Of a stretch of 64,000 nt of DNA, positions 1-64,000 are shown in pieces. The notes under the pieces are model-generated. The model made no database searches. It was given only the letters and a program-made list of their open reading frames with translations, and had not been told where the DNA came from. This DNA is from Pleodorina starrii (Eukaryota; Chlorophyta; Chlorophyceae; Chlamydomonadales; Volvocaceae): contig BRXU01000003.1 in assembly GCA_030267565.1 (NCBI GenBank), positions 7,987,001 through 8,051,000 of the forward strand. Direction: 5' to 3'. The translations under genes were made by a program, and so were the position numbers. Numbering within the stretch: position 1 is the stretch's first letter; each line of letters begins with the position of its first letter.

Positions 1-817
1 CGGTAAGGTCCACGCAGACAGCAGGCATGGGCCCATCGATGATCGATCTGCGGATGGATGTACCGCCGCACGTCCGTTCGTGCGCGCCGCCGTCGGTGTG
101 CCAGTACGGCATCCAACGTACGGCAGATGGCACACGCGCAAACATTCACGCACGTGCGAACAACACACCATACCAACCGAATTTATTAGGATATAAGTTA
201 CGTAGTTAAAGTATGTACACGCATACACCACTGGATGGCTATCTAGCCAACTATCTATCTAGCTATTTACCTAGCTAGCTATCGAGTTATCTATCTATCT
301 GGATAGATCGGTCAATAGATAGGTGCGATGACGTACCCACGCAGGTCTTCAGCGTGCGGTCATACGTGTAGCCCTTGGGGCAGGCACACTTGAAATACGT
401 GGCCGTGGGGAGGCAGGTGGAATTGCCGCCGCAAGGGGAGGGCGACTGCTGGCAGCTGGCAGTGTCTGCGGAAGATGGGGCAGCAGTGTCAGAAGCAGGA
501 CGAATCGTAGCAGGGAGTTACGGAGGGGCCCTGAGGGGCCAACAGGTAGGACATTATAGCTAGCTAGGACGACGATTGCTTTGGACGACTGGGATGCGGC
601 AACAAGTGTCGAGAATTCTGGACGTCTGGAGCGCATTGCCTGGAAAATTTTCCCTTGCAAAATTGACACAACAAGAACTGGACAGTAGATGACAAGTGGA
701 CGGCTTACCCGTGGCGGCCAGTGCAACCTGCTGGCCGACTGCAAAGGCCGCCAGCGCACTCGAGGCGAGCAGGCAGAGCCACCTGCAGGTTTGTGCTCGC
801 CGCCAGAAAGTCGACAT
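1..817 (-). CDS. Secreted EGF-like domain protein, 5' part (gene continues past window start)
   Basis: Exon 1 is 817-709: ATG at 817-815, then a basic n-region, a hydrophobic Leu/Ala core and an AVGQQ-type cleavage region, i.e. a signal peptide. It ends at donor GTAAG in phase 1. Exon 2 is 465-337, from acceptor CCGCAG to donor GTACGT. It encodes one EGF-like module with six cysteines in the order C-x6-C-x5-C-x8-C-x1-C-x12-C (CQQSPSPC, CLPTATYFKCACPKGYTYD) and also ends in phase 1. A third exon may begin at 47 after acceptor CCGCAG, also phase 1, but too little is left to judge. The intron between about 60 and 336 is CTAT-rich microsatellite. The product is predicted to enter the secretory pathway; partner and function cannot be told. 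An upstream in-frame ATG at 850 exists, but the 817 start gives the cleaner signal peptide. Confidence 0.7.
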
Positions 818-1416
818 GTAGAAGTTAAAAAACATTATCGTGAATCGCAAGATAGGACCGCGACGACCTTGGAAAGCAAGGTAGCGGTAATTACGGTTGG
901 AAATGTGATTGCGTAAGCAGAGCAGCTCTGTGCGTAACTGAGCGTCAATTTAGGCATGTACTGTGAGTTGGGAATTTAGTTAAAATCTTTTAGCTTTGTT
1001 TTGCCCCGCCAGTTCGTCGTGCCCCTTAACGCCTTAAGTATGCGTCACGTAAACGGTTTTGGAGTGAGATACCGTAAGTATACGAAATGTGAGAGCCGTA
1101 CGGTAGCAGCATGCGCGCTGCGTGTAATGCTCTTACCCCTCAACGGGCAACGGAAGTATTGTCAAAGGCGTCGAACTACACGATTGAATAATCACAACCT
1201 TCAGGTCACTTGTCTGACCAACGGCCACTAACGAACGCCTACCTCATCGCTCGGATCTCGGAGGGTAAGGCAAGAGAACAGAAGCGGGAAGAGCGCTCAA
1301 TGGAAAGTGGCCATGTGGGAAATGCAGGTGAAACGGGTTGCCGAAGTATGTGGAAAGCGCTGTGAAAGACCGCGGTTGATCGGAAACGCGTTCTGGGAAA
1401 AGCTACAAGGCGAGAA
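818..1416. other. Upstream/intergenic stretch, nothing recognised
   Basis: No ORF here resembles a known family and no convincing splice-bounded exon was found. It probably includes the promoter of the minus-strand EGF-like gene, but no clear TATA element was identified. Confidence 0.5.
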
Positions 1417-1560
1417 ATGGCGTTGTGTTGGGCGTCATGTCTGCAGGAGTACGACATCGATATTGCGTATTTTCCTGGGGGGCAGCAGCTGGCCGATTTG
1501 CCTTTGTGTATGCCGCGTGAGAGCGCACACAGGACACGAGCGAAATGTCCGCATGAGGGG
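1417..1560 (+). pseudogene. Ty3/gypsy RNase H fragment (relic)
   Basis: The plus frame contains SCLQEYDIDIAYFPGGQQLADLP. This matches the end of the gypsy RNase H domain and its connection to integrase, normally of the form LQEYDxxIxYxPGxxNxxADALSR. The surrounding frame has no further retroelement domain, and the ADALSR end is altered to ADLPLCM. I read this as a short decayed piece of a Ty3/gypsy pol gene. It is too short to assign to a lineage. Confidence 0.45.
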
Positions 1561-1639
1561 TCAGAGCTCAGAGGAGCGCGTCGCGTTGCCTCTCCCACCC
1601 CCGTCACCTCATGCTACCTCATCCCACCTCACCTCACCG

Positions 1640-2942
1640 TTACTTGATCGTTTCACAGATCAAAGACCACAGACAGGGAGAGCAGACTATTACCTGGGGC
1701 CACCGTGGACATGTCCGCAGCGTGCGCTGCGTACGATGACCTCATCAGATCTCGTCACTAACGAACGGCTATACCGGTACTTGGCCGCGCCAGACAGCGG
1801 ACCCCTGACTCTCGCCTCCTGCCCTCCGCTTCGCTCCGCTCTACACCACTCCGAGACCACTCCGCTTTGACACCGCTCCGCTCTGACACCGCTCCGAAAC
1901 CGCCCCACCGCCCCACCGCTTCACTCCGGGATGCTAAAAAGCCCACATAGGTAACGTAACGCTTCCAAGGCGCTCCGCTCCAAAACCGCTCTGCTGCAGC
2001 GAGCGAGCGAGGCACGTGGACCGAAGCTGCACGCCAGGTGGGGGGGGGGGGGAAGGGGGAAGGGGGAGGCGGGTGGGGGAGAAATGGTGGCATGTCCATG
2101 GGGGAAGGAAGGGGCTTCCGTTTGTGTGTGTGCCCACGGGCCTGGGGCCCACGGACGCCCCATCCCTCAAGCGGGGTGGCAGGGGAGGCCCTGTGAAGCG
2201 GAGCGCGAAGAGGGACGCGGGTTGCCGCACCCCACCGTGTAGCGACGGTGTGCGGGCGGCGTTGGTGAAGGGGGCAACCGCCGATCAGCCGAACCTCCCC
2301 ACCACCCCATCCACCCAGACGCTTCCGCACCCGCTCCAAGCTGGTCCATATGGCCTGGACCCGCTCGTAACCCCGACCAGCTCCCGGGCCATACCTTGCC
2401 AACGGCGGTGACCGGCGCCGCTGTCTGTGTTCGAGTGCGGCGTGGTGGCCATCGCAGGGCCCCCACACCCGCAACACGGCGGAGGCGGCGGAGGCCCCGG
2501 ATGGCGGGCTGGGGAGGACCTGGAGACCGACCTGCGGCGGGCGTCCGGCCTCAGCCTTTCCCTACCGCGCCGCTGTCGGTCCAGTGTCAAGTGCCGTAGC
2601 GGCATGTTTTTGGTGGCCGCTAGCCTCCGCCTCGCGGCGTCGCTCCACAAATGACGGAGGGGCGGTTTGAGGCCCAGGCGGACGCCCAGGCGAGGGTGGC
2701 GAGGCTCAGGCGGGGGTGCGGGTGGCGAGGCGCTGCGACGGCGGAGGTTGTGTGCCTACGCCGCCCGCCCTGCGCTTCGTCGCGTTGCGACCCACGGGTC
2801 ACTGCACCCGTGACCAGAGCGCCGCTGACCCGGGGCGGGCCGCAGCCGCAGCCGCGGCCTGGCCCTCTTGCGGCTGTGGGCACATGCCGCCCCCCCCCCC
2901 CCGGGTCAGCGGGCGCCCCGCCCAGGCAGCCGCTGCTGGCTA
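1640..2942. other. GC-rich low-complexity region downstream of the DUF455 gene
   Basis: The stretch holds CGCTCCGCTC-type direct repeats (about 1825-1920), an 11-G run near 2041 and proline/arginine-rich shadow frames on both strands. It includes the 3' flank of the minus-strand gene ending at 2943. No supported gene was found. Confidence 0.5.
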
Positions 2943-5900
2943 TCAGCGCGACAGCGCAAGCGCCGGCGGCGCTGATGCCGCTGCGGAACTCGCAAACGCG
3001 GGCAGCTCGGCGTCCGGTGCGGGCGCGGGCTCGCGCTCCGCCGCTGGCGCTGGCGCCGGCGCCGCCGCTGCCGCCGCGCGCTCCCCCTCCAGGCCACTGA
3101 ACAGCGCCAGGCGCTCCGCCAGCTGCCGCAGCTGGTCCGCGGACAAGCGGGGCTGCGGACCCTGCAGCCGGGGATGGGCCGACCCGCGGGTCGGCCGCCG
3201 AGGCCGCTGCGGCTGCTGCTGCTCTGGCTGAGGCTGCTGTAACTGCTGCTGCTTTGGCTGCTGCTCTAGCTGCGTCTGCTCCTGCGGCTGCTGCGGCTGC
3301 GGCTGCTGGGCCTGGGCTACTCTGGGGCTTTCCCCGGGCGCCGACGACGACGCCGACGATACGGCCGCCGACGGCGCAGAACCAGACTCTTGCGCCGGAT
3401 ATTGCCGCTGCGTCCGCTGCTGTTCCCCGCCTGATGCCTCCTGGTGCCGCTCCACAAGCTCCCGTTCCCGTTCCTGTCTCTGTTCCGGCTCTTGGTTCCG
3501 TCTCTGTTCCTGTGTCTGGTTCAGGTCCGGCTCCAGGGGGTCGGAGGGCCAGGCGGTCGGGTCGTACCAGTCGCGGGGCAGGCCCACCCTGGAGCGCTCC
3601 GAGTGGTTGAAGGGGCCCTTGAGCAGGTCGGGGTTGAGATGCAGCAGCCACTGCCTGAGAGGGGGTGGGGGTGGGGTGGGGTTGGGAGGAGGGGTGTAGG
3701 AGGCAGGGGAGGAGGGGTGGTGGTGGTTCGACGGGGGGCTGGAAAGGGGAGCAAAGGGGGGCGAGGCTGGTTTGGGGTTGCGCAGCGACACACGCGGAGT
3801 CCGGCGCTGGCAGGTGGGACCCGGCAGGGAGGGAGGGAGGCCAGGTGCCAGCAGCAGAAGGAACCAGGAGGGGCGCTGAGAGGGACGATAGCGTCTCGCT
3901 GAGGCCGCCCCGCAACGGATCCCCCTTCCTCCCCCACCCCGTCAGGTCTCTTCCCGTCCCTTCCACCTCGCCCTCCGACCATCCCACCACGACCCCCTAA
4001 CCCCAGGCCCCGCCCCCACCCAGCACACACCCCAAAACAAACCCCGGCCCCCACACCCGCCCCCTTCCGCCCTCCCTCCCTCCCTGCCTCGTTCGCTGCC
4101 TTGTCTCCGCAAATGGCTTTCCTCGCCGCAACGTTCATCCTCAACCTCACTCAACGCACTTCCCTTCACCTCCCTTTCTCCCCTTCTCCCCCTGCCCTCC
4201 CCCCTCCCCACCTGCCCCCCCCTCCCCCCTGCCCCCCTCCCCACCTGTACAATCGGTCTGGCCGCATGCCCAGCACCCCGCACAGTCGGCTGAACCAGGT
4301 CACCCCCACCGCCACGTGCGCCCGCTCCTCCTCAGCGATCGCCGCCACCACCGCCGCGGAGCGACTGTCCCCAAAGCCCACCAGCCGCCCCACCAGCCGC
4401 CCCCCCGCATCCAGACCGCGGGCCTCCTGGGACATAGGGACAACCGCCAGCCTGGGGCGGGGAGGGAGGGTGACAAACAGGGTACCGCGGCGAATGAGGG
4501 GCGATGGGGTGCGATGGGGGGGGCAAGGGGTTACTTTCTACTTGGGGCAGGGTTCGGCCCTTCGCTTCCTCATTACGAAACGGACGGACGGGATAGGAGG
4601 AGGAGGAGGTACGCGGGCGGGATACGGTGCCCCATGACCCCCCTCCTCCACCTCACGACCTCCACCCACCCACCACTCCATGACGCCACCACACCATACC
4701 GCACCACACCACACCACACCGCACCACACCCGGTTTGCAGCTCACGGACACGGGGCCGGGGGCAGAGGCCAGGTGCAGTACCTTCACCTTGGTCGGCCCC
4801 TGAGACACACACACACACACACGCATACACACCCCAAGCTCACGCAGCCCACTTCCCTCTCCCCCCTTCCCCCTCCCTCGCCCCCCCTCCCCCCTTCTCG
4901 CCCCCACCTCGCCCCCAGGTCCACCGCTGACAGTCTGCAGCCCTGCCACAGCAGGTCGTGTGCGTCCATGTCCCCGTAGCCGTGACCCAGCTCCCCCAGT
5001 CGCTGCAGACACCAGCCCAGGTGCCGGCTCTCGTCGTCCGCCACCCTGCGCCCGGGGGAAGAGGAGCAGGGCGAAGGCGAAGGCAAAGGGGGACCGGGCA
5101 GGGTGAGGCGGAGGCGGAGGCGGCTTTGGGGGCGCAGGCGGCAGCGGCAGCGGCAACGACAGGGACAGCGGCGGTAGCCTGTGCGGAGTCTCCATCGTCC
5201 CCTCCCGGGCTGGGTCACTCGGGTTCTGTGCCCGTGTTCCCCCTTGCCTTGTACCCGGCTTTTACGGACGCCCCAAGCTCAGATGACTTGGGGTTTGCGT
5301 AGCCTACCGTGTCGTACCCATTGGGCCCCAACCCGAGGCCCCCGACACGGCCCCGTCCTGCCTCACCGATGGCGCCCTCACAAGGGGTCGGGAGCCTGGC
5401 CCCGAACCCATACCGGACAGCCCACACCCCCCGCCAGCCAGCCGTCCATCCATCCAGCTACCCAGCTATCCACCCACCCACCCGCTCACCCACCCACTTG
5501 CGTCTCCTCGTCCCGGGCCGTTTTAATTACCACCCATTCGCTCACCCAGCTATCCACCCAGCTATCCACCCACCTGGCAAAGTCCTCGTAGAACTGGTCG
5601 GGCAGGTGCAGCGGCGCGAAGCGCACCACCGTGTCTGATCACCACGGGGGGTTAGGGAGGGGAGGAGGGGGGTTAGGGAGGGGAGGAGGGGGGAGTGCAG
5701 CAGCTCTGGTGAGCCCGGGCGCTTGCGGAGAATACCGTCGAGGCATGGGTGAAGGCGCGGTGGGGATCATCATCCATAAACAGTGTTGTGGGAGCCCCCG
5801 GAAGATAACCCCACAACCCCCACAACCCCCCTCACCCCACAACCCCCTCACACCCACAACCCCCTCGCCCCAGGCCAACCCCCTCACCCCCCTCACCCCA

Positions 5901-48951: not shown

Positions 48952-50780
48952 GGTGTTATGGACAGGTCTGAACCTTCATCGCGGCCGGAGGCCGCGAAAA
49001 TTTTTTTTGGGGCGGCCGAAAGATACATTTTCCTTAAGGAGTTTGCTCCTCAGGCCGCCAAAATGAAAATTAGGATCCACAACGGAAAGTCAAGTATTGA
49101 GAGTCGAAATAATGCTCGGATGCATTGTCAGATGTTTGGGGAGTATGGATAGAATTAGACTGTGGTCAACGGGGCGGTGTAGAGGCCAATAGAACATTCT
49201 CAACTACCACCCAGTCCATGGATTCTAAACATAATTGTACTTGTAAGGAAAATGCCATGAAAAGGGATGAGACACCTTGAACATCACTTGGAGGACCGTG
49301 TTAGATGGATCACGTTGCATTACTCCAAAATAATTACCTTACAAGCAGCAAACATGAAAATCACGAAAATAAGCTAGCTTTTAGAGGTGCATGTCCAGAA
49401 AGATGTCAGGAACGAATACGTGTGTAGATCGACCCGCGGGCCAGACCGGTTCGGCAGGGTGCGGCAGCGAACGCACGCACGGTGCCCTGCAACCACAATG
49501 CCCGACTGCAATGGCATGTAAGACAAGACCGACAACATTCCTTACTGCGATAGGGCCTCCAATATCAGGAACGGTTCCCTCCCCTCTGGGTTACGTAGCC
49601 CCCCCCCCCTCCGCCCTCATATGGATTCTAACCCAGCAATCCATTCGGGGCTACAGTGTCCCATGCGCCACCTTTACCGTACCTTTCTATGATAAGAAGG
49701 CATGGATCGATGTCGGCGCCGTGGGTAGTGGAGGCAGCGGCGCGACGGAACGAGGCTTGACGTGTGGGAGCTAGGCTGAGGTTGACGGTTCACACACCCG
49801 CCTTTCGTAGGAACGCTGTCTCTGTTTCGCGCGCCGCCCTTACCGTACCTTTCTATGATAAGAAGGCATGGATCGATGGCGGCGCCGTGGGTAGTGGAGG
49901 CAGCGGCGCGACGGAGCGTGGCTTGACGTGTGGGAGCTAGGCTGAGGCCCAGGAACCCCAGGCAACCCACTTGACGGTTCACACACCCGCCTTTCGTAGG
50001 AACGCTGTCTCTGTTTCGCGCGCCACCTTTACCGTACCTTTCTATGATAAGAAGGCATGGATCGATGGCGGCGCCGTGGGTAGTGGAGGCAGCGGCGCGA
50101 CGGAACGAGGCTTGACGTGTGGGAGCTAGGCTGAGGTTGACGGTTCACACACCCGCCTTTCGTAGGAACGCTGTCTCTGTTTCGCGCGCCGCCCTTACCG
50201 TACCTTTCTATGATAAGAAGGCATGGATCGATGGCGGCGCCGTGGGTAGTGGAGGCAGCGGCGCGACGGAGCGTGGCTTGACGTGTGGGAGCTAGGCTGA
50301 GGCCCAGGAACCCCAGGCAACCCACTTGACGGTTCACACACCCGCCTTTCGTAGGAACGCTGTCTCTGTTTCGCGCGCCGCCCTTACCGTACCTTTCTAT
50401 GATAAGAAGGCATGGATCGATGGCGGCGCCGTGGGTAGTGGAGGCAGCGGCGCGACGGAGCGTGGCTTGACGTGTGGGAGCTAGGCTAAGGCCCAGGAAC
50501 CCCAGGCAACCCACTTGACGGTTCACACACCCGCCTTTCGTAGGAACGATCTTTCGGTATGACTCGTATTGGTAAACAAGCATGTTATCAGTCCACCAAT
50601 ACATCCTTACCAGTCTGCCAGTATGCCGTTCAAGCAGAGTCATTGAGACGGAGTCAATGGCTACACCAGCATCTGTCACTGAGGCGTCTACCGAACCAGC
50701 CAGCATTCGCAACGCCAATTGCCACAGGAGCAGTAGGGCGTCCTAGCATACAGACACGGGGCTCTACACTCGTCTCATAG
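48952..50780. mobile_element. Non-coding repeat element, copy 2 (reverse orientation)
   Basis: Reverse complement of 32403-34113, including the long/short 187-bp unit order. It extends about 130 bp further past the GAGTCATACCGAAAGATCG segment, so it is the more complete copy. Very few differences are seen, implying recent movement or conversion. Confidence 0.8.
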
Positions 50781-50995
50781 TGAAGGCAAATAGGGCACGG
50801 AACACGCACGCACCGCCTGTAGACCTCCGTCACAGACAGCGACCGGTCAAGAAGCGTCTTCCTGCCATGCCCAGAGGTGTGGGTACCATCGCAGCAAACA
50901 ACCCGCTAACTTCACGGGAATGAACACTCGCCGGTCCAGGCGGCTGCAGCAGAGGCGACGGCGCACGCTGCTGGAACTGCAGCTGCGACGGCCCC

Positions 50996-51750
50996 GCACT
51001 GCTCGCCGCCTGCGTGTTGCCGAAGGGCCCCGCACCGCTCAATGCCTGCGTGTGGCCCGGAGGGCCCCGCACTGCTCGCTGCCTGCGTGTTGCCCGAAGG
51101 GCCCCGCACCGCTCGCTGCCTGCGTGTGGCCCGAAGGGCCCCGCACTGCTCGCTGCCTGCGTGTTGCCGAAGGGCCCCGCACTGCTCGCTGCCTGCGTGT
51201 GGCCCGAAGGGCCCCGCACCGCTCGCTGCCTGCGTGTGGCCCGAAGGGCCCCGCACCGCTCGCTGCCTGCGTGTGGCCCGAAGGGCCCCGCACTGCTCGC
51301 TGCCTGCGTGTTGCCGAAGGGCCCCGCACCGCTCGCTGCCTGCGTGTGGCCCGAAGGGCCCCGCACTGCTCGCTGCCTGCGTGTTGCCGAAGGGCCCCGC
51401 ACTGCTCGCTGCCTGCGTGTTGCCCGAAGGGCCCCGCACCGCTCGCTGCCTGCGTGTGGCCCGAAGGGCCCCGCACTGCTCGCTGCCTGCGTGTTGCCGA
51501 AGGGCCCCGCACTGCTCGCTGCCTGCGTGTGGCCCGAAGGGCCCCGCACTGCTCGCTGCCTGCGTGTTGCCGAAGGGCCCCGCACCGCTCGCCGCCTGCG
51601 TGTTGCCGAAGGGCCCCGCACTGCTCGCTGCCTGCGTGTGGCCCAAACGGCCCCGCACTGCTCGCTGCCTGCGTGTGGCCCGAAGGGCCCCGCACTGCTC
51701 GCTGCCTGCGTGTGGCCCGAAGGGCCCCGCACTGCTCGCCGCTTGCCGCG
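50996..51750. repeat. 37-bp tandem array, about 20 copies
   Basis: Units combine GGCCCCGCACTGCTCGCTGC with CTGCGTGTGGCCCGAA, with C/T and indel variants (GTTGCCGAAG, GTTGCCCGAAG). All frames through it look open and are artefacts. Confidence 0.95.
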
Positions 51751-51984
51751 CCAACACTGCCAAAGGAGCACAAGACTGTGTCCAACTTCTCCATTGGCGC
51801 GCCAAAGTCGCAGCATAGTGGCGGTTCTGGGGGACAGGGTAACAAGTAGGGACGGTAAAAGGGTTTTAACTAGTATGCAACCTGGACGAGAGATGCAACA
51901 GCCAGCCCTGACGCTGCCGCCGCCTTCCCCGGCGGAGCTTGCCTCGGCGGCGCCTTCCCCGGCGGCGCTTGCCCGCACCTGGCC

Positions 51985-52775
51985 CAGCCCTGGCCCAACC
52001 TTGGCCCGGTGCTGCCGACACCTGGCCCGGTGCTGCCGGCACCTGGCCCGGTGCTGCCGGCACCTGGCCCGGTGCTGCCGACACCTGGCCCGGTGCTGCC
52101 GGCACCTGGCCCAGTGCTGTCGGCACCTGGCTCAACAAGCCGCCACCTGGCCCGGTGCTGCCGCCACCTGGCCGGGTGCTGCCGGCACTTGGCCCGGTGC
52201 TGCCGCCACCTGGCCCAGTGCTGTCGGAACCTGGCTCAACGCTGCCGGCACCTGGCCCGGTGCTGCCGACACCTGGCCCAGTGCTGCCGGCACCTGGCCC
52301 AACGCTGCCGACACGTGGCCGGGTGCTGCCGGCACCTGGCCCGGTGCTGCCGGCACCTGGCCCAACGCTGCCGACACGTGGCCGGGTGCTGCCGCCACCT
52401 GGCCGGGTGCTGCCGCCACCTGGCTCAACTCTGCCGCCACCTGGCCCGGTGCTGCCGCCACCTGGCCGGGTGCTGCCGGCACCTGGCTCAACTCTGCCGG
52501 CACCTGGCCCGGTGCTGCCGGCACCTGGCCTAACGCTGCCGGCACCTGGCCCGGTGCTGCCGCCACTTGGCCGGGTGCTGCCGCCACCTGGCCGGGTGCT
52601 GCCGACACGTGGCCGGGTGCTGCCGGCACCTGGCCCAACGCTGCCGCCACCTGGCCCAGTGCTGTCGGCACCTGGCTCAACAAGCCGCCGCCTGGCCCGG
52701 TGCTGCCGCCACCTGGCCGGGTGATGCCGGCACTTGGCCCGGTGCTGCCGCCACCTGGCCCGGTGCTGAGGCGCG
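51985..52775. repeat. 21-bp tandem array, about 37 copies
   Basis: Units of the type CCTGGCCCGGTGCTGCCGGC with GGCA/GACA/GCCA variants. The 21-bp period keeps several frames open. Confidence 0.95.
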
Positions 52776-53282
52776 CGAGACGTACTGCGTGACCCGCCCA
52801 GTGCGCATTCCAAGACCTGAAGAGCGGCATGGAGGAGAATCCCGGCATCAGAACCCTGTTTCTATAATAAGTCAATGAAATGTAAAGTATGTTTAACATG
52901 CCGGGGCTTTCCATCATGTGTAGCTGCGTCGCGTCTTACGCCAGACGGGATGGCCAGGGGTGCACACTTCGGTAATGTACACGACTCATTGGAAAGTGTG
53001 TGAGTTGCGCTACAATATTTAAGTGCTGATGAGATGTTGCTGAGACACCTGGCGCCGGCAAGTTTCACAACGGCTTGCATCTTCCCCTTGCAAGCGCTGT
53101 TCGCAAGTTGCTCTGAACTGTAAGATATTCAAACGTGCATTAAATCGAGTTTTACCCCAATGAATTGGTGTGAAGTGAAGGAAGTTGGGCATGAAAATTA
53201 CTTGGTACGGAAGCATGAAAATAAGAAAATTGTGGTACGGTACGACTGTCCAAGGCATGAAAATTAGCTTAGATTGGTAGAT

Positions 53283-54783
53283 TGGTAGAAACCACGTGCC
53301 CCAAGTACTCCACCTGATTTTGCGCCCAGTGGCACTTAGACCGTTTCGCGAAAAGTTGTTCGCGGCGAAGGACATCAAGCACCAGACGAAGATGGCGAAG
53401 ATGTTCCTCCTTGGTCTTGGAGTAAATAAGGATGTCGTCCAGGTAGCATACGACAAATTTGTCGATGAAAGGCCTGAACATGCGGTCAATAACAGCTTGG
53501 AAGGTAGCAGGAGCGTTAACCAAACCAAAACTGAGGACCGTGTACTCGAAATGACCGAAAGGAGTACGGAAAGCCGTCTTAGGGATGTCAGACTCAGAAA
53601 TGCGAATCTGATTGTAACCCTGCTGCAGGTCAATCGAGGAAAAATAAGACGCGCCCTTAAGCCGGTCAAGCAAGTCGTCGACGCGCGGCAAGGGGTAGCG
53701 ATTCTTAACAGTCACCGAGTTCAGCCCACGGTAATCAATGCACATGCGCAGAGTACCGTCCTTCTTGCCCACGAAAAGAATCGGAGCAGAGTAAGGCGAA
53801 GTGCTAGGTCGAACCATTCCCTTTGCAAGCAAGTCAGTCACCTGCCGTTTTACCTCGTCCAGCTCGAGAGGGCTGAGGCGGTACATCGGACGCGAGACAG
53901 GCTGCGCGCCAGGCACCAAGGGAATCGTGTGGTCGACCGGCCGAACCGGCGGAAGGCCGGGAATCTCCCGAAAAACATCAGAGTATTCCTCCAGAAGGGC
54001 AGAGACGTCAGAGTCCTGCGAGGAATCTTGCGCGACAGCAGCGTTAAGACGAACAGAAGGCCGCACAAGCAAAGCATGGGCACCCTTTCGCAGCAAGCGC
54101 ATCGCGGCCTTGCGGCCGACAGGCTCGGGAGAGGCGTGCGCGCAGAGAGCAGCAGCAGCAAAGTTGACACGCGGAAGGGCATCAACCGCAGGTTCACCCC
54201 CCTGCGAGGCCGGAAGCCACGGCACAACGCAAGCGGAAGGCCCTTTTGAGAGGCGCAACGTGCGCGCCGCGTAATCGAGCGAGGCTGCATGCTCACGAAG
54301 GGTGGAAGAACCCAAAATGAAAGAGGCCGCGTCCGTGAGGGACGGCAGCACGTACGGCTCAACAGAGAACCAAAAAGACCCCAGGGAAACGCGAAGAGAA
54401 ACGCGCCCTAAGATTGACTGCTTGGCCCCATCCGCGAGAGACACATGTGACCACTCACTGGACCGAAGCGGAAGGCCGAGCTGTTGAACGAGCTCCGCGC
54501 TCACGAAGTCGTGGGTTGCGCCGGAATCCACCAAGGCGGGGAAGGCGCGACCTGCGGTGCTCAGAGAAACAAGGGGCAAAGAAGACCCAGACACAGCGAT
54601 GCCAGAAGAAGCTGCAACAAGCACCGAAGTGTACGGCGAAGGCTGCACGGCGGTGTACGGCAGGGGCTCGTCGTACCAAACGTCGACCGAGTACGGGAGG
54701 GCGGCGAGCTCCACCGTACGGCCGGCAAGGTCCACGCCGTTGAACAAGACTGAACCGGAGGGGAACGAATGAACCCGGCGCAT
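53283..54783 (-). pseudogene. Chromovirus aspartic protease and reverse transcriptase (pol 5' part)
   Basis: An open minus frame contains a retropepsin motif [13 protein letters not shown] (DSG near residue 93 of the frame that starts at 54804). Then come [40 protein letters not shown] and the catalytic [11 protein letters not shown], down to VEYLGHVV, where the inserted block begins. RT motifs 1-6 look intact. The apparent start MLYLSCC is translated LTR remnant, not a natural start. Gag is absent. Confidence 0.85.
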
Positions 54784-54808
54784 ACAACAGGAGAGATACA
54801 ACATGTGG

Positions 54809-55266
54809 GGACCATTGCTGACGATGTCCGTCTGATGTGGTGACGCCCGAGCCAGAGCCCAGCTGCCAGAGCCAGTGCTAGATCCCGGGAATCGTTGAAT
54901 GCGATGTGTCCGTAGTGGGGTGATCCGCGGATGCTCATGCCGTCTTGTTGTTTGGCAGATCCGTGGTTAGGTGAGCGTGTTGGCGACCCGCTGCTGCATC
55001 GTTGGTTGTTTGTGGCTGGGCACTTCTCCAGGTGTTTCCTGCTTGCGTGCAGACTTGGTGTTCACCGTACGTTTGGCATTTTATCTTCGTGTCTCGGCCC
55101 TACCGACAGGACGCTTGGATTGTCGTGCGGTCATGGCTGGAACTGCTTCGCACCTGATTTCATGTGCACCCCTTCATTTCCAGCTTTGCTTTCTGCGTTG
55201 CACGCTGGGGGGGGGGAGTCCGGGGTAGGCACATGGTTCGTTCGTGTGCAGTCATGTGATCCGACA
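54809..55266. repeat. Right part of LTR-like unit 1
   Basis: Near-identical to 56734-57185. It abuts the next unit at 55267-55268 (GC only), giving a perfect 22-bp palindrome across the junction. Confidence 0.85.
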
Positions 55267-55268
55267 GC

Positions 55269-55388
55269 TGTCGGATCAGTTTACCGTCACCGACAGTTTA
55301 CCGTCCGTATTTCCTGTTATTGCGGATTTGCGTAGTTTGTTGGTTCTACGTCAGTCTTGGTTGTTCGCTTTCGAGTTCGTAACGTATA
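55269..55388. repeat. LTR-like unit 2, truncated
   Basis: It starts TGTCGGATCA and matches the first 120 bp of the unit at 45446, then breaks off after GAGTTCGTAACGTA into methyltransferase-like coding sequence. The 5' internal part of the element to which it belonged has been deleted. Confidence 0.75.
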
Positions 55389-55424
55389 GTCAGCACCTCC
55401 CGGGACAGGACGCATGCGTCTGCA

Positions 55425-58400
55425 GTGCGGTGGGTCAGGGCTGCCGCCAAGGCGAACCCCCAGGTTTTTGAGGCTAACAAGACCAACCCCTTGTCGCGTG
55501 CCTTCTTCGCTCGGGGTTTGGGTACGGGCGTTACCGTGTATGAGCCCATTGGCGGCTTGTGCGCGGGGCTCGAGGCTTGCCTTCGCGCGGGGCTCAAGGT
55601 GGATCGGTACCTGTGTTCCGAGTCGGACCCAGCCGCAGTCAGGGTTGTCAACATGCGTCTGGAGCGGCTGAGCGCCGAGTTTCCCAAGCAGTTCCCCCCT
55701 GTCGGATCAGTTTACCGTCACCGGCAGTTTTACCGTCCTATTTCCTGATATTGCGGTTTCGCGTAGTTTGTTTGTTCTACGTCAGTCGAGGTTGTTTGCT
55801 TTCGAGTTCGTAACGTAGTATAGCTCACGTGAAGATCTCGGGGGTAGGATGTCGTACAGTTGTTTCGCGTATTTTAGTCGAGTCTTTGGCTTTTTGCCTT
55901 GTCTCGATTTGCTCTCAGGCAGTCGCCTGTGAGCAACTAGTAGGCCCCTTTCGTTAGGTTATGGACCTGGCCTAGCGGAAGAGACATGTAAGGTCTTTCA
56001 TCGTCACTCTTTTCCCTTGCCTGTGGCCGAGACACTTCCATCGTCCTCGTATTTGCACCACTTGTGCAATACTGAGCATCATGTGGTCAGCCGTTCTGCG
56101 TGGAGCCGACTTCGCCAGCAGCCGGTGGATGATCCTATCAACGTTACGGTGACGCCTCGTCGCGAGTGTGCCGCATTGCCGTTGCGCCATTTATGTATAT
56201 TTGGCGCATGTGAAACAGCTTTACTGGATGCAGCGCATTTACCCAGCAAATCGAGACCAAGTGCTTGGTTCTTATCGAGCATGATGTCGTGATATTATGA
56301 TTTGGTCGCCGCGCCTGACCTTCGGATTGAGCCTTGATTTGTGTATACGCAGTGGATTCGTTTTGGCCCGAGACTGATACTGTCGAGTTCTGCGTCTTGC
56401 CGGCGGGTAGATGCCGCAACTTCTTCGCCAATGCTATATCCCGGGCCACGTTGAAGGGATAGTAACGCCTACCGACAGAGGTGACGCCAGAGCCCGGTAG
56501 CCAGAGCTATATCCCGGGTAGGGGCTAGGCCTGCGTGAAGTGCTGACTGAGGTGACGCGAAGCGGCGTTAGGTTGTCGTGCTGAACCCTGGCAGGAATTA
56601 GGCGTCAGTTGAGGCGGGACCAGATCGCTTATGTTATTGCGTAGTGCGTGGCTGTCCGTCGTGTTCCGCGCCCGCCCAACGTGGGCTGGCTGGGTGACGC
56701 GCAGGTGCTAGATCCCGGGCCACGTGTGGGGACCATTGCTGACGATGTCCGTCTGATGTGGTGACGCCCGAGCCAGAGCCCAGCCGCCAGAGCCAGTGCT
56801 AGATCCCGGGAATCGTTGAATGCGATGTGTCCGTAGTGGGGTGATCCGCGGAGGCGCATGCCGTATTGTTGTTCGGCCGATCCGTGGTTAGGTGAGCGTG
56901 TTGGCGACCCGCCGCTGCATCGTTGGTTGTTTTGGGCTGGGCACTTCTCCAGGTGTTTCCTGCTTGAGTGCAGACTTGGTGTTCGCCGTACGTTTGACAT
57001 TTTATCTTCTTGTCTCGGCCCTACCGACAGGACGCTTGGATTGTCGTGCGGTCATGGCTGGAACTGCTCCGCACCTGATTTCATGTGCACCCCTTCATTT
57101 CCAGCTTTGCTTTCTGCGTTGCACGCTGGGGGGGGAGTCCGGGGTAGGCACATGGTTCGTTCGTGTGCAGTCATGTGATCCGACACCCCTGATGCGTACC
57201 GCCGGGTCTGGCTCGACCTCCCCTTGTCCCTCGCTAACGTTACTGAGCAAGCCCTTCTCTCAGCTGGCGCCTGCGACGGATCCCAGTGGCTCGTCTTCGC
57301 TAGCTGGTGTTGGCATGACGTCGGTAAGGAGGCAGGTTCGCTCGCGCCTGGCGCTTGCGCCACTGACCACGTCGTACGCATAGTGCAGACCTTGCAGTCC
57401 ATTCAGCGCCGCGCTCCTGCATTTATGTTTGTCTGTGAGCAGCCGCGCGCCTCGTGGCGCAATGCGTCGGCTGCACAGCAGCGTGTTTCGGATGCATTTG
57501 GTGAACCGGTGGTTGTTGACGCTGCGCGCTTTGGTTCCCTTGCGCATCGCTTGTCTGCCCACTGGACTAACCTCGCGGCTCCCGAGCTGCTTGCCTTAAC
57601 TACTTCCCTGGTTCGTCCGGAGCATGATCTTTCCCTCCAAAGCATTTTGTCGCCCGGGCGCACGGTCAAACCCGCGCGCATCCCGGAGGCGCAGGGGCTG
57701 TTTCCCTGCAACAAGGTTGGTGAGCCCCTTCGCGTTGCGCCGAGCCTTAGTCGCCCGGACCTGCAGTCCTTGTTTGATCTCGTGCATGATCCACTTGATC
57801 CGGATAACGGGACTCTCACCATCACGGAGTCCGAGTGTGCCATGGGCTACCAGGCTGGGGACACGGAGGCCCCTGATGTCACTGACGCACAGCGCCGCGT
57901 CCTGCTGGGACTCGCTCCTGACGCCATGTCTACGGCTGGCATTTTGGCCATGTGCCGCGTTCTCTCGGACGTGTCTTTGCATGAGGTGGCAGCATTTGTG
58001 TCTGACGTAACCCCACAAGCGGCGCCTGAGCCGGTTCGTGGACTTGCGTACCCTCTTTTCCCTTCGGAGGATCCCTCCCCGTGGTCCGTAGCCTTCGCAG
58101 CTGCAGCCCACGCTGAGGAGGCTGAGGCCGCGCGCCCGTCTGCTCGCTGGCCGGACATCTGGGACGATGAGGCGTCCATCCACTTCCTTCGCAACGGTAC
58201 CCACCTGCCTAACCTTTCGGTAGAGGAACAGCGTCGCGTCGCGCGCCGGGTGGGGTCGTATACCATGCAGGGAGGCAATTTGTACCGTGTCTTTAACGAT
58301 GCGAAGTCTCGGCTCGTGCCCAAGCCGCCTGATCGGGTTGAGCTCATTAGGCGCACTCACGAGGAGACGGGTCACTTCGGCATCCGCCGTACGATCGCCC

Positions 58401-58552
58401 TTCTCCTCACCCGGCACTGGTGGTACGGCATGTACCGCGACGTATCCAACTTTGTTCGTCATTGTGAGCACTGTGATCGGGTCAACACTTCTTTTGCGGC
58501 CCCGCAGCCCGATCTGCACCCTTTGCCTGTTCAGGGTTTGTTTTACCGGTGA
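55425..58552 (+). pseudogene. C5-cytosine-methyltransferase-like domain plus integrase zinc domain
   Basis: The first piece has a motif-I-like GVTVYEPIGGLCAGLEACLR followed by RYLCSESDPAAVRVV (SAM-binding type). After the inserted unit come WLVFASWCWHDVGKEAG (position of motif IV), APAFMFVCEQPRASWR (motif VI position), VVVDAARFGSLAHRLSAHWT (motif VIII type) and ESECAMGYQAGDTEAPDVTD with QRRVLLG (motif IX/X type). The catalytic Pro-Cys is changed to Trp-Cys and the ENV triplet to CEQ, so enzymatic activity is doubtful. Next is an H2C2 integrase zinc domain (RRTHEETGHFGIRRT ... HCEHCDRVN). The frame ends at TGA 58550-58552, where Trp is expected in FYR(W)GVDLCG, so this is a nonsense mutation. 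Confidence 0.75.
55701..57185. mobile_element. LTR-like unit 3, 1485 bp, inserted in the methyltransferase-like frame
   Basis: Termini are TGTCGGATCA and TGATCCGACA. It is flanked by CCCC at 55697-55700 and 57186-57189, and precise removal of the unit plus one CCCC restores the reading frame (QFP then PDAYRRVW). It matches unit 1 over its whole length. It has no long ORF. It is either a solo LTR or a short non-autonomous element. Confidence 0.85.
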
Positions 58553-60580
58553 GGGGTAGATTTGTGCGGGCCTTTGCCCGTTACCAAATCGGGGCACACT
58601 TATGTCATGATTTGTGTCGAGCATTTCTCCAAATACGCTGTTCTGGTACCTCTGCCCGATAAGGAGGCGGGGCACACCGCTTTTGCATATCTGCACCACA
58701 TTTTGGGGCGGTATGGGGCCTCAGCTGAGGTTTGCACGGACGGTGGGAGCGAGTGGAAGGGTCCTTTCGCGCAACTGCTCCTTGATTCGCTAATCGACCA
58801 CCGCCAGACTTCACCCAACCACCCTCAAGCAAATGGCTTAGCAGAACGCGTCGTGCAGACGTGCAAGCGCGCGCTACGCCGCATGGCTAGGCAGCGTGCC
58901 GAGGGCCGGGACTGGGACGAGCTGCTGCCGTACGTCATGCTGGGCTACAACTGCTCGACCCACAAGTCCACTGGTTTCAGTCCCTACCTAATCCTGCACG
59001 GTGTGGAGCCAACCATTCCGCCTGCCATCAAACCAAGGTTTGACGTTCCGGTTTCGTTTGATGACGGGGAGTTAGCTGCGGCGTCAATTTTGACGCGTGC
59101 GGACGCTATGCGCCACCGGATGGCCATTGCTGGGGAGAACTTGCTGATAGCGCAGCACCGGGATACTCTGCGCTATGCTGCGCTGCGTGGGGGCGGGTAC
59201 CATCCCAAGCTGCGTGAGTTTGACGTCGGGGACTACGTGTTTTATCGCAACACTAGCTCCCGCACCACGCTTGACCCGCCTGCCCAACCAACCATCTTGC
59301 GTGTCATTGAGGTGCGCCCCAGTGGCGTGCTGGTTTTGGAGGGTCACTGCGGTCAGACCCTGAAGTCGCACGTGAAGGACTGTGCGCCTTGCCATCTGCC
59401 CATCCGTGATGAAGTGGTTGACCCGCGCGTCGCACGCCCGTCTGCCACTTTGTCCTGTGAGGTGTGCCGCTCCCCCAAAGGGGAGGAGTGGATGCTGCTC
59501 TGTGATAGCTGCGGTACGGGCTGGCACACGTATTGCATGAAGCCGGCCCTGAAGCAAATTCCCGAGGGCACGTGGGTGTGCCCCAACTGCACAAGCAAGG
59601 GCGTTACGCCCGAAAGCGTGGATGCACGTCCCATCGACAGGCCCCGTGAGCCTGGTGCGTCTAAGATGCCCCCTGCCAAGTCGGCTTCCAAGCCGGTGCC
59701 CCCTCAGTACTGGTCGGAACTTCAGGGCGCGAAGGTCGTTCGCCAGGACCACGGTGCTCAAAGTGTGGCTGCGGCTAAGAGTGGCGTCGCAACCTATGCT
59801 GGTCGCCAAGGGCGCCGGCACCTCTTCGAGGTGTTGTATGATGATGGTGAGCTGGAGCTTGTGGAACCCACGCGCCTGAGGACTATGCTGGCGCCAAAGG
59901 TCGCTCGCCCCGTGCGGGCAAGCCGTGCGGCTGCGGTGACCGCTCAGCCGGAGACCTGGAAGCTTGGAGCTGGAGGAGATGTGGCATGTGCGCTGATGGC
60001 TGCGATGCCGGGTGAGCACCCTCCGGCTAAGGTGGCTCTTCTCTCTCGTGTTGTGGGTTCTGCGGCGTTCGATACCCCGCCGGTGCCGATTCAGCACGTC
60101 CAAGCGTTGACGGAGTACGTGGAGCTGGGTATGGTTCGGGATGCGCTTCTCCCGTGGGGTGCGGACCCCGCGGTTCGATCGGTGCTGGTCAGCAAGGGGA
60201 TTCGGGTTTCCAAAGGTAAGTTGTCAGATGCGCGCGAGCCGCTCGCGCCAGGGTTCTACGAGGCGGCGAAAAAGCAGTTGTCGTCGGTAGAGTCGGTGTT
60301 CCTGTCGGTTACGGGTGCGCCGCTGGATCTTGCAATTCCGGCGGCGCTGAAGGTGGCCCAGAGCTTCGTGGTAGCGCGGGTTCCGATGTCGTATGTCTCG
60401 GGTGCGGATGAGGTTCGCATGCGCTGGTTGAAGTCGTTGCAGAGGCAGGATAGGTTGTTGATGTTTAGGTGCCCGTTCGAGGCCGGTCAGGAGCTGTTTA
60501 TGTGGCTGGTGGTTTTCACGTCGCCCGCCATTCGGCGGTTGGTGGTCAAGCAGAGCGGTTTCGTGGAGGACATCGCATAA
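58553..60580 (+). CDS. Integrase catalytic core and PHD finger (after the nonsense codon)
   Basis: The catalytic triad is visible: D at 58559-58561 (GVDLCGPL), D in EVCTDGGSEW, E in NGLAERVVQ. The core includes HPQANGLAERVVQTCKRALR and STGFSPYLILHGVEP. An SH3-like tail follows (EFDVGDYVFYRN), then a PHD finger at about residues 299-343 of the frame opening at 58562: CEVCRS ... MLLCDSCGTGWHTYCM ... WVCPNC, with all C4HC3 ligands. Next is a Tudor-like HLFEVLYDDGELELVEPTRL segment and a basic C-terminus. PHD fingers read histone-tail modifications, so this may serve for target choice, as a chromodomain does in chromoviruses. The frame is open for 672 codons. Confidence 0.85.
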   Translation, partial: GVDLCGPLPVTKSGHTYVMICVEHFSKYAVLVPLPDKEAGHTAFAYLHHILGRYGASAEVCTDGGSEWKGPFAQLLLDSLIDHRQTSPNHPQANGLAERVVQTCKRALRRMARQRAEGRDWDELLPYVMLGYNCSTHKSTGFSPYLILHGVEPTIPPAIKPRFDVPVSFDDGELAAASILTRADAMRHRMAIAGENLLIAQHRDTLRYAALRGGGYHPKLREFDVGDYVFYRNTSSRTTLDPPAQPTILRVIEVRPSGVLVLEGHCGQTLKSHVKDCAPCHLPIRDEVVDPRVARPSATLSCEVCRSPKGEEWMLLCDSCGTGWHTYCMKPALKQIPEGTWVCPNCTSKGVTPESVDARPIDRPREPGASKMPPAKSASKPVPPQYWSELQGAKVVRQDHGAQSVAAAKSGVATYAGRQGRRHLFEVLYDDGELELVEPTRLRTMLAPKVARPVRASRAAAVTAQPETWKLGAGGDVACALMAAMPGEHPPAKVALLSRVVGSAAFDTPPVPIQHVQALTEYVELGMVRDALLPWGADPAVRSVLVSKGIRVSKGKLSDAREPLAPGFYEAAKKQLSSVESVFLSVTGAPLDLAIPAALKVAQSFVVARVPMSYVSGADEVRMRWLKSLQRQDRLLMFRCPFEAGQELFMWLVVFTSPAIRRLVVKQSGFVEDIA

Positions 60581-61140
60581 GCGGTGCCGTCGTTCTCAAA
60601 TAATTCAGCGTTTTTCGTCCATTGTAGTCCTACCCGCTGGGGGGGGAACTGGTCACTAGGCACATGTCTGGTCTTTTGTGCAGCCAGCTGTTCCGACAGC
60701 TGACAGAGCGTTTGGGTGTCATCGACGAATTGCCGTCAAACGGTTAATTAACGGCAAGAACTGTTTTTGTCTGTTTGCTTATTAGAAGAACTTGATTTCG
60801 GTGCAGTCGTACTTGCATGACTGCTCGCCAGTCTGACTGGTGTGATCGCCCGTTCGCGGTCACTTGGTTACGGATCTTTGCGAGTTGTGTGTCGCACGCG
60901 CCGCTGTTGGGCGCGTTATGGCGTAAATGTTGTGATCTATTTGTTGTTAGTAAGACGTATCGCATCGCTGTGTGAGCGTTGGTGGTAGGAACACCGGGGC
61001 CCGTGTCCGGCGTTCCGTAATCCGGGGCCTTACGCTTATCCGAGGGTTCCGTGATGAACTGTTGTGCGTATTTAAGGCCGAAAGCGAGCCTGTCTGGTCG
61101 CTTTTCGGCTCTGAACACTTGTAAAGTTCTGAGCTAGGCA
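60581..61140. other. 3' flank of the element: purine tract and diverged LTR-like region
   Basis: GCTGGGGGGGGAAC (60636-60649) and the following 50 bp (TAGGCACATG ... TTCCGACAGCTGACAG) are a diverged version of the end-to-start junction seen at 55205-55290. Further on, TATTTAAG (61069) and TTGTAAAG (about 61122) could be promoter and polyadenylation signals of an LTR. The boundary is not defined. Confidence 0.45.
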
Positions 61141-62776
61141 ACAGGCCCCGCTCCAGCAGGGTACTCCAGCAGCAGGGTATTGGACGTCGACTCTGCCCTA
61201 TCTGCCCAGTCAATGGGGCTGAATCTGAAGCTATGATCAACTGCTGACATGCTACGGAGGTTCTTCGAGAGCCGCTTTCCTCAGGCAAACCGGCTCTGGC
61301 CGCACCAAAAGATGAGACCGCAGCGGTGGGATGGTGGGAAGGAGGCGACGTTAAGTTGGCGAACGGACGGACCCATGAATCAGCCTGGGCCCAGGGATCG
61401 AGGGGCGGGCAGAGGCAGCAGGCCAGCTGGCTTAGGAGGTTGATTAAGAGTTAAAGGGAAGGGCAGGGAACGCGAATCGTAAGCGTATGGTAGGATTCGT
61501 GCTCTGCTCCTCTCGCCATCTATCTGCATCGTGTCCGCGGCTCCACGCCCGGCACTTCAAGTGGAGGGCGATGGCCCTGGACGGCGTACGTACGGGTTGG
61601 CCGTGGCAATGCTTTGCGATGGCAAATTCATCATTAGAGTGGGGGCGGCAGCAGAGCGGCATGCTCGGTGATGCTAATATGGAGCGTGCTGGAGCTGCCC
61701 TACAAAGCAAATTCAAAGTCCTCAGAAGTAGATGGGTTTGCAGGCCGTTATGTGCAGCCCGCCGCTGCAGCAGCCGCGGCTGGCCGCGGCAGCCACGGCG
61801 GCCGAATCATCTCGGCTTCGGTCTGCAAGGCGCACGCAGCGCGATAACTTCGTGAATAATTGCTGGGTGTTCAAACTTCTGATATAAGTAGGGCAGGGCC
61901 CCGGTGGTGCGAGGTCGCACTGGTCGGTGGTCGCACGCAGAGCGGCGAGTGTTTCCCGTCAACCAGACAACCGTAATGTTCTCACAGTTTGAGGTGCGGC
62001 CTTGCGTACAACGTTTTTAGTTTTGTAGCTTATAGATATGGCTTCTTGTGCGATCATATCGCAGTTTTCACCGATACGTGGACACAAGCCGCCAGCCACA
62101 CCTGCAGTAATAGGGTGTTTGCTTCTCGCTTGCTACCTTGAGAGAGCCGTAGATAGCTTGGTTACTTCGGAGTATTTACTCATTTTATTAACTGGTGTGT
62201 AGTAATGACTTCCGACATAATCACTCTGGCCGACGGTGGAAATTGGCTGGAACCCGCGGAAGGTACGCCTTTCATTTCACGCACGCTTCCTGACGCGGCA
62301 ATGTGCAGCATTTTATCTTCAAAAACATTATGCGTTCAGGGCATCGATGACTAAACAAATCGGTTTCGGATGTTTACGAATGAGGGGCACAGGGGACGCA
62401 AGGGCAATGGAATGGCATGCCCTTTAAATCCAAGAAAAAAGCATTTTCATGTAAATTTTATTCTCCTATGGCTGCCGTCACTTCCGAGTGTGTGGCGAAT
62501 GCTCGCTCGCCTGCTCGACATACTCGCCCACCGGCCCACTAAATTACGGTTCCGGCATCATGGGGCGTGAGAGGGTGCACACTAGTTGCCTGATACACAT
62601 CTAACTCATGTTATGATAGGTTTATTCATGCGGCCGGTCTTCGACATGCATGCCAACGACGGTGACCGCGCCCGCCCGTTTAATGCAAAGTACGGCAGGA
62701 TAGGCCAACCAAGGCTTGTGTACATAAAGTCAGGATACAGGCTCTCCGAGACCGCAAAATCTTTTATGCATGGAAG
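61141..62776. other. Intergenic region before pherophorin D
   Basis: No recognisable coding or RNA gene. It contains the 5' flank of pherophorin D, without a clear TATA box. Confidence 0.45.
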
Positions 62777-64000
62777 ATGGCGAAAGCTAATTACATATTT
62801 TTAGCCGCTTTGGCCGTTTCTTGGTAGGTGTCGGAACGTATGTTGGGCCTAGTCACCATTTATGCAGCGATATATCAGCATTTCATATGTCCACGAAGTT
62901 TAACTTCGAACCAACAGCAGAATGGCGCTGCGGGACCCAGGGCGTTAACCCGCGTTCATGTGAAACATTTCTTAGCCAACAGATCACTTGTCATTCATGA
63001 CGGTGTGTGGTCTATAGATATAGGTTATTGTATTTAGCGTGCCGATCACGGGGGTGGCTGCCTGAACACCTGCAGGGCGACCATCGCGGCCGCGGCAAAT
63101 GAGGACTACGAAGCCTTTGCCGATCAGACCGGCCTTCTTCCCTACTTCCCTTATCGGGAGTGCGCCACAAGAATTGGCGCATACCGGTTTGCTCCCGAGA
63201 TCCAGTCGCTGGGTGGCGGCAAGTACTGCTTCACCATCCAGGTCCAGACGCAGAACTGCACCAACGCCTGCTGCAACACGGACCTCACCAAGATTGAGGT
63301 TAGTGAGAAGAGTGACAAAGCTCACCTACGTTTACTGAGGAAGTGCCGCATCGAGGCCGCTGGTTGCAGCAATTGCTATGTTTGGTTTCATTTCACAGCA
63401 CGCGAGGGAACCGCGTTACGTTGTGTTGCCACGCCGAAGCACCATTATCTCGACGTGCGCAATCCAGCCCTTCTGAGACTGAGTGGTCTGCATCTGCGGT
63501 TCCACCTCCCCCCATCCCGCGGCAGTTCAACGTGTCGGACAGCTGCATCGTACAGCCCGCAATGGAAGTCAAGTCAACCATCAACGGCGTCCCCACCAGG
63601 GTCGGCGCCTCCTTTGGCCGCCCCGTGAACGGCCGGCCGGGCTCCGCCATTCTGCGTCTCACGCAGCTGGGGCTCAACACCACGACGGCCAGGGACGCGG
63701 AGGTGTGCCTCACCCTCAAAACCAACCGCGGCGGAAAGGGCTGCGGCACCCTCGAGCAGCTGTGTGCAACTCAGGCAAATACTCCCAAGGGGACCTGCAC
63801 GGTTGCCATGTACGACACGCCGTGCAGGTGCTGTCCGGTTTCTCAGGCCTCCGTGACGCTCGTCCCAATGGCTTACAATCCTCCATCACCCGAACAGCCG
63901 TCGCCATTATTCCCGCTATCCCCCACGCCGCCATCTCTGCCCCCGCCCCCTTCCCCACCGCCACCGCCTCCTCCGCCGCCTCCTCCGTTGCCCCCACGAT
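62777..64000 (+). CDS. Pherophorin D, 5' part (continues past window end)
   Basis: Exons: 62777-62823, 63076-63298, 63526 to the window end. The signal peptide MAKANYIFLAALAVSW is split at the same place as in the other genes. The N-terminal domain is GGKYCFTIQV ... NACCNTDLTKIE and then NVSDSCIVQP ... GCGTLEQLCATQA ... CRCCPVS, which differs clearly from A and C. The proline-rich linker ([10 protein letters not shown]) has just begun at the window edge. The C domain must lie beyond 64000. Phases match pherophorins A and C (exon 2 ends after AAG ATT GAG). Confidence 0.88.

Follow-up and report, generated by a model that had tools for sequence, protein, structure and literature searches.

The closest known system to the element described here is KnitGypsy-Dnmt3 of Klebsormidium nitens, which, according to the main text of de Mendoza et al. 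(2018; PMC5890265), carries a Dnmt3 domain in the gypsy Pol frame. As described there, its repeats are DIRS-like despite the gypsy domains, the key functional residues are conserved and the Ka/Ks ratio is below 0.2 (PMC5890265). The same account presents LINE-Dnmt and DIRS-Dnmt3 of Symbiodinium as retroelement-encoded DNA methyltransferases (DNMTs) with functionally conserved residues, one of them belonging to the Dnmt3 clade (PMC5890265). The subject of the present analysis is F1, a gypsy-type retrotransposon of the alga Pleodorina starrii, a copy of which lies in a stretch of 64,000 nucleotides (contig BRXU01000003.1, here C3, positions 7987001-8051000; hereafter, the window). Its polyprotein combines a DNMT3-like domain with an integrase and a PHD finger.

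Two other systems are useful for comparison. DNMT3L is a catalytically inactive relative of DNMT3 linked to a zinc finger module that reads histone H3; it is an ADD-bearing host gene acting on DNMT3A. In chromoviruses, which are gypsy elements, a chromodomain located C-terminally to the integrase does the tethering job.

Organisation of the F1 element

A search of the genome (136 Mb) with a middle piece of 454 amino acids revealed nine full-length F1 matches, the window copy included, with 98-100% protein identity, and the DNMT3-like domain is present in all nine. Ten further partial F1-like rows (75-98% identity) lie outside these counts; a relic on C35 (L046) was inspected among them. An accidental fusion confined to the window copy was ruled out by the constancy of the domain in the nine matches. 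Two copies, A (on C5) and B (on C1), have uninterrupted frames of 3052 and 3050 codons, respectively. In copy A, Pfam domains follow in the order reverse transcriptase (RT), RNase H, a gap of approximately 590 amino acids, H2C2, rve and PHD. No Pfam match to gag or protease was obtained in F1 (copy A), although both should be located upstream of RT in the single polyprotein. Hydrophobic, membrane-segment-like stretches were noticed by eye between the gag region and RT of the uninterrupted copy L041.

The window copy is a truncated and decayed one and consists of the following parts:

55386..61150, + strand: F1 remnant (blastn against copy A: 55386-55701 at 100%, 57186-61150 at 99.6%)
55392..55700, + strand: N-terminal part of the DNMT3-like domain, with motif I (55530-55577)
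~55700..57185: insert, a solo terminal repeat (A-B) of an unrelated element family, with the ends TGTCGGATCA and TGATCCGACA
57188..58033, + strand: remainder of the DNMT3-like domain, with motifs IV (57287-57319; SWCWHD, degenerate), VI (57422-57448), VIII (57509-57574) and IX/X (57815-57910)
58358..58474, + strand: integrase zinc-binding domain H2C2 (Pfam PF17921, E=4.2e-17)
58550..58552, + strand: in-frame stop after H2C2 and before the integrase core, missing from the uninterrupted copies
58553..58855, + strand: integrase core rve (Pfam PF00665, E=4.4e-6, 27.3 bits, below the cut-off of 32.6), with the D, D and E motifs at 58553-58576, 58730-58756 and 58817-58855
59456..59590, + strand: complete C4HC3 PHD finger (Pfam PF00628, E=5.7e-11; best PDB sequence CHD4, E=1.6e-17)
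59591..60580, + strand: C-terminal tail of the polyprotein up to the stop, in an open frame
59717..59890, + strand: possible, weak Tudor-like stretch after the PHD finger (PTM_DIR17_Tudor was matched in family F2 only, E=0.0022, below the cut-off; a PDB search with the window stretch gave one chance-level match, E=0.73)
60648..60698, + strand: internal B repeat, with GC directly after it (60699-60700); copies A and B carry it again at their outer right ends, as does E for the most part
60701..61150, + strand: start of the right-hand A repeat, approximately 706 bp long in intact copies; the window version ends at 61150 and its outer part is gone

The first 316 bases of the remnant (55386-55701) are identical to the uninterrupted copy of 3052 codons at 316 of 316 positions, and with the 99.6% of 57186-61150 this goes beyond a chance resemblance. 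Because the match to the uninterrupted element begins only at 55386, all parts upstream of the DNMT3-like domain, including RT and RNase H, are absent from the window copy. The DNMT3-like domain is split by the insert, which is flanked by CCCC on each side (55696-55699 and 57186-57189) and together with one duplicate comprises 1490 bases (~1.49 kb), one more than the 1489 first assigned to it (55701-57189). Since it lies between them, codons 1-106 (55383-55700) and the segment 57188-60577 are in two different frames, and the F1 pieces on either side were searched separately, unjoined. The original prediction, in which a C5-methyltransferase fold, an integrase and a PHD finger are combined in one gypsy-type retroelement, was borne out by the uninterrupted copies, the fold being DNMT3-like in particular. 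The methyltransferase-type motifs, H2C2, rve (below its Pfam cut-off) and the complete PHD finger were all recovered, but their placement in one frame holds for the 3052 codons of copy A and not for the window copy, where the insert shifts the frame and the stop at 58550-58552 intervenes.

The insert was also considered as F1's own long terminal repeat (LTR), and this was ruled out, as copies A, B and E show no match to it; its relatives are present in three other F1 loci. Adjoining the F1 copy on the left (54801-55386) is a B-GC-A module of another repeat family with split direct repeats, matched end to end at 16 places of the genome including the window, the solo form of which is the F1 insert. 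Another kind of element is held by the locus L051, beside one of the repeats of the insert's family: a frame at 742-3501, perhaps of LINE type, in which a C-terminal part resembling endonucleases and a stretch resembling Josephin were recognised by eye.

The ends of F1 were examined in seven of the nine full-length matches, the copies on C4 and C20 being left out, and both ends were available in A, B and E. These three have the arrangement A (~706 bp)-coding-B (~50 bp)-GC-A-B, flanked by 4-bp duplications (ACAC, ACCC and CCAA, respectively); the outer B of copy E is somewhat different from the others. The left end is missing from copies C, D and F, and the window copy is incomplete at one or both ends. 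Plain LTRs at both ends, as in Ty3/gypsy elements, were not found in A, B and E, which have split direct repeats instead; F1 is therefore gypsy-like by its domains and not by simple LTRs. The direct repeats of A, B and E are identical at 99.86%, 99.1% and 100%, which indicates recent insertion. F1 is thus a recently active Ty3/gypsy-type retrotransposon, although its window copy is decayed. A Ginger-like DNA transposon, to which the TGT...ACA ends and the 4-bp duplications had pointed, was ruled out for F1 because the uninterrupted copy has RT, RNase H and near-identical direct repeats.

In family F2, one copy has the order A-coding-B with TGCC on both sides and another is permuted; the copies L021-L024 are permuted relative to one another. 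The F3 copies (L025-L028) contain inverted segments and a perfect inverted repeat of 627 bp. The junction GACA-GC-TGTC (GACA-GC-TGAC in F1) is common to F1, F2, F3 and the family of the insert.

Identity of the DNMT3-like domain

None of the nine members matched Pfam DNA_methylase at E<=10, and neither did the window and F1-F3 pieces. A single F1 sequence searched against PDB found DNMT3A at only E=0.61, with nine of the 12 matches being DNMT3A. The signal increased with profiles: profile A1 gave E=0.0019 (25 of 27 matches DNMT3), and profile A2, to which F4 had been added, gave E=1.6e-5 (26 of 27). Motifs I, VIII and X align with those of DNMT3A in the same order, and fold searches also matched DNMT3A. 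These DNMT3A profile and fold matches were obtained with the uninterrupted copy L041 and its relatives. By both fold and sequence the domain is nearest to DNMT3, and it is almost certainly DNMT3-like.

The domain is also found in four further families, F2, F2b, F3 and F4, with 13 full-length or near-full-length rows in F2b, three in F2, 10 in F3 and 14 in F4 (the last counted by match pattern, with four loci read). Intact members lacking the domain, which the original prediction had named as evidence against it, did not appear among the nine full-length F1 matches, and these four families have the domain too. The Ty3/gypsy Pol order of RT, RNase H and integrase (H2C2 and rve core) was observed in F1, F2, F3 and F4; the rve score exceeds the Pfam cut-off in F3 and F4 but falls short of it in F1 and F2. 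RNase H and H2C2 are separated by approximately 590 amino acids in F1, 617 in F2, 605 in F3 and 744 in F4, but by only 92 in L049, a chromodomain gypsy element of the same genome (1368 codons) without a DNMT3-like domain. The difference (~590-744 versus 92) supports the placement of the domain, and the short gap and terminal chromodomain of L049 indicate that the domain is not universal among the gypsy elements here. A fragment with Protease and RT of a different gypsy element lies at 53019-54966 (- strand) of the window; by eye, L049 is a near-identical, longer and intact relative of it.

A PHD finger is located C-terminally to the integrase in F1, F2, F3, F4 and F2b (L042, L050). In one F2b copy (L038) the integrase is deleted and the DNMT3-like domain, by eye, runs almost straight into the PHD finger. 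The nearest PDB sequences of the window PHD finger are those of CHD4, MLL3, KMT2D, BAZ2B and the demethylase Lid; several of these PHD families read unmodified H3. No Chromo match follows the integrase in F1, F2, F3, F4 or the F2b piece (Pfam), which sets these elements apart from chromoviruses. The DIRS features of a tyrosine recombinase and no target duplication were not found, as an rve integrase and 4-bp duplications are present. Among viral contigs, 47 pattern matches included no relative, and plasmids gave no match.

Catalytic motifs and selection

In F1, motif IV has two versions: SWCWHD, shared by copy A and the window copy, and GWCWHD, present in the remaining seven. The diverged relic L046 has IWCRHD, retaining the Cys. 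In F2 it is NVRC, with the Cys kept without Pro; no Cys at this motif was found in the F2b, F3 and F4 copies examined, and Pro-Cys occurs in no sequence examined in any of the families sampled. Besides, F1 retains the Glu of motif VI and one Arg of motif VIII, whereas DNMT3A has another Arg in motif VIII and an Arg-Ser-Trp in motif X that lack counterparts in F1. The glycines of motif I are kept in part. Across families, the glycine and hydrophobic framework and the fold persist, while the catalytic motifs drift freely. The reading of Trp-Cys in place of Pro-Cys stands as regards the absence of Pro-Cys, but may be one residue off: in gapless register with what we take to be motif IV of DNMT3A, the Cys of F1 is aligned with the Pro, and a Trp with the Cys.

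The pooled ratio of non-synonymous to synonymous substitution rates (dN/dS) of the F1 domain is 0.161 (six of the nine copies, 15 pairs), close to that of the integrase (0.157); the other values are 0.192 for the linker and H2C2, 0.071 for RT-RNase H and 0.296 for the part after the PHD finger (five of the six copies), all of them descriptive, since the pairs share history and the copies are a subset. For the F1 PHD finger the ratio is undefined, with zero synonymous changes and five non-synonymous differences summed over the 15 pairs. The domain has pooled, likewise descriptive values of 0.267 in F2b (five of 13 matches), 0.176 in F3 (six of 10 full-length matches) and 0.399 in F4 (four loci, namely three of the 14 long rows and L044). 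The expected consistency of Trp-Cys among copies and purifying selection were thus both found in F1 (nine of nine copies; 0.16 in six copies). As judged from its motifs, the domain has very probably lost catalysis. Its putative retention for binding rather than catalysis, as originally proposed, fits the constant Trp-Cys and the low dN/dS.

Possible role of the domain

In the single polyprotein, RT and RNase H are followed by the DNMT3-like domain, then by H2C2 and the integrase core, and finally by the PHD finger and the tail. The DNMT3-like domain may act as a non-methylating, DNMT3L-like module that binds DNA or nucleosomes, or oligomerises, just before the integrase. The PHD finger behind the integrase, closest to fingers of the CHD4/BAZ2/KDM5 type, may read the histone H3 tail. 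As a whole, a non-catalytic, DNMT3L-like chromatin-binding module that together with the PHD finger aids the integrase is, by a modest preference, the best explanation. It is supported by the architecture, its constancy in F1, the presence of the domain in four more families, the similarity to the DNMT3 clade, the lack of Pro-Cys and dN/dS well below 1. More tentatively, the dead DNMT3 module and the PHD finger flanking the integrase might anchor the integration complex at chromatin of a particular state. A purely structural role, discussed below, accounts for the data nearly as well. The lack of a methylase match, which the original prediction had itself counted as adverse, is literally the case for Pfam, but is outweighed by the profile searches against PDB and the fold searches.

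The domain could be a structural part of Pol, needed for folding, for oligomerisation or to keep RNase H and integrase apart, and would then have nothing to do with chromatin. This is a serious but rather doubtful alternative: it agrees with the drift of the catalytic motifs on a persistent framework and with a constraint like that of the adjacent integrase, but 92 amino acids are enough as a linker in the gypsy element L049, and with a PHD finger in the same polyproteins it is more natural to expect the pair to act on chromatin. A still-active methyltransferase with an unusual motif IV, marking its own cDNA or the insertion site, is improbable. Although the Cys is constant in the nine F1 copies and L046, the motif VI Glu and a motif VIII Arg are retained, dN/dS is 0.16, and KnitGypsy-Dnmt3 keeps its catalytic residues according to the main text of PMC5890265, this stands against the missing Pro-Cys, the Trp at the presumed Cys position, the DNMT3A residues of motifs VIII and X without counterpart and three sister families with no Cys at motif IV.

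An equally small chance is given to a decoy that binds S-adenosylmethionine, or pairs or competes with a host methyltransferase, blunting methylation of the element; the DNMT3L-like degeneration and the partly kept motif I glycines would suit it, but a six-frame search of the genome gave no DNA_methylase match from the host at E<=0.001, a negative that is weak because introns split genes in such a search. Finally, an unrelated Rossmann-type fold or a one-copy accidental fusion, for which the missing Pfam match might speak, is very improbable given the DNMT3-specific profile and fold matches and the occurrence of the domain in all nine full-length F1 matches and four further families.

If a non-catalytic chromatin-binding module is the right explanation, the element could sense the chromatin where it lands. 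The retention of a degenerate DNMT3-like domain with a PHD finger in five families suggests that mobile elements may make targeting modules out of epigenetic writers, as happened with DNMT3L in mammals, and integrase targeting through combined reading of DNA and histones becomes testable in a green alga.

Other features of the window

Two long tandem arrays, with units of 36-37 bp and 21 bp, occupy 50900-52800, and a 189-bp repeat is found at 50137-50558. Coding pieces of a pherophorin (DUF3707) are located at 63038-63999 (+ strand), in keeping with a volvocine host.

Comparison with known systems

Among open-access titles and abstract openings, no report was found of a gypsy element from a chlorophyte that has both a DNMT3-like domain and a PHD finger, subscription papers and Repbase being outside the search. 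Like DNMT3L, F1 pairs a degenerate DNMT3 relative with a finger of the H3-reader type, but the pair is borne by an element and not by a host gene, the weak six-frame search having yielded no host counterpart. Like chromoviruses, F1 has a chromatin reader C-terminal to the integrase; in contrast to them, a PHD finger replaces the chromodomain and an extra DNMT3-like domain precedes H2C2.

The Symbiodinium elements resemble F1 in carrying a retroelement-borne DNMT, but, as described in the main text of PMC5890265, they are a LINE and a DIRS element with a tyrosine recombinase, and their residues are conserved. With KnitGypsy-Dnmt3, as presented there, F1 shares a Dnmt3-type domain in gypsy Pol under purifying selection, as well as A-coding-B-A-B repeats combined with gypsy domains, found in three F1 copies. 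The two differ in motif IV, which is degenerate in all families here whereas the residues of KnitGypsy-Dnmt3 are conserved, in the PHD finger of F1, a word absent from the main text of PMC5890265, and in the host, a green alga with pherophorins versus a charophyte.

These likenesses raise the question of one old Dnmt3 capture common to gypsy elements of the green lineage. Speculatively, and with rather low probability, a single capture by split-repeat gypsy elements might predate the split between green algae and the land-plant lineage, the enzyme being kept in the charophyte branch and turned in the chlorophyte branch into a DNMT3L-like dead reader with a PHD finger, so that the integrase there would have two modules for sensing chromatin, one of writer and one of reader origin; the 'independent acquisition' in Klebsormidium would then become an ancient shared capture. 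Retroelement DNMTs are known from a few lineages, as conserved enzymes as far as the main text of PMC5890265 describes them.

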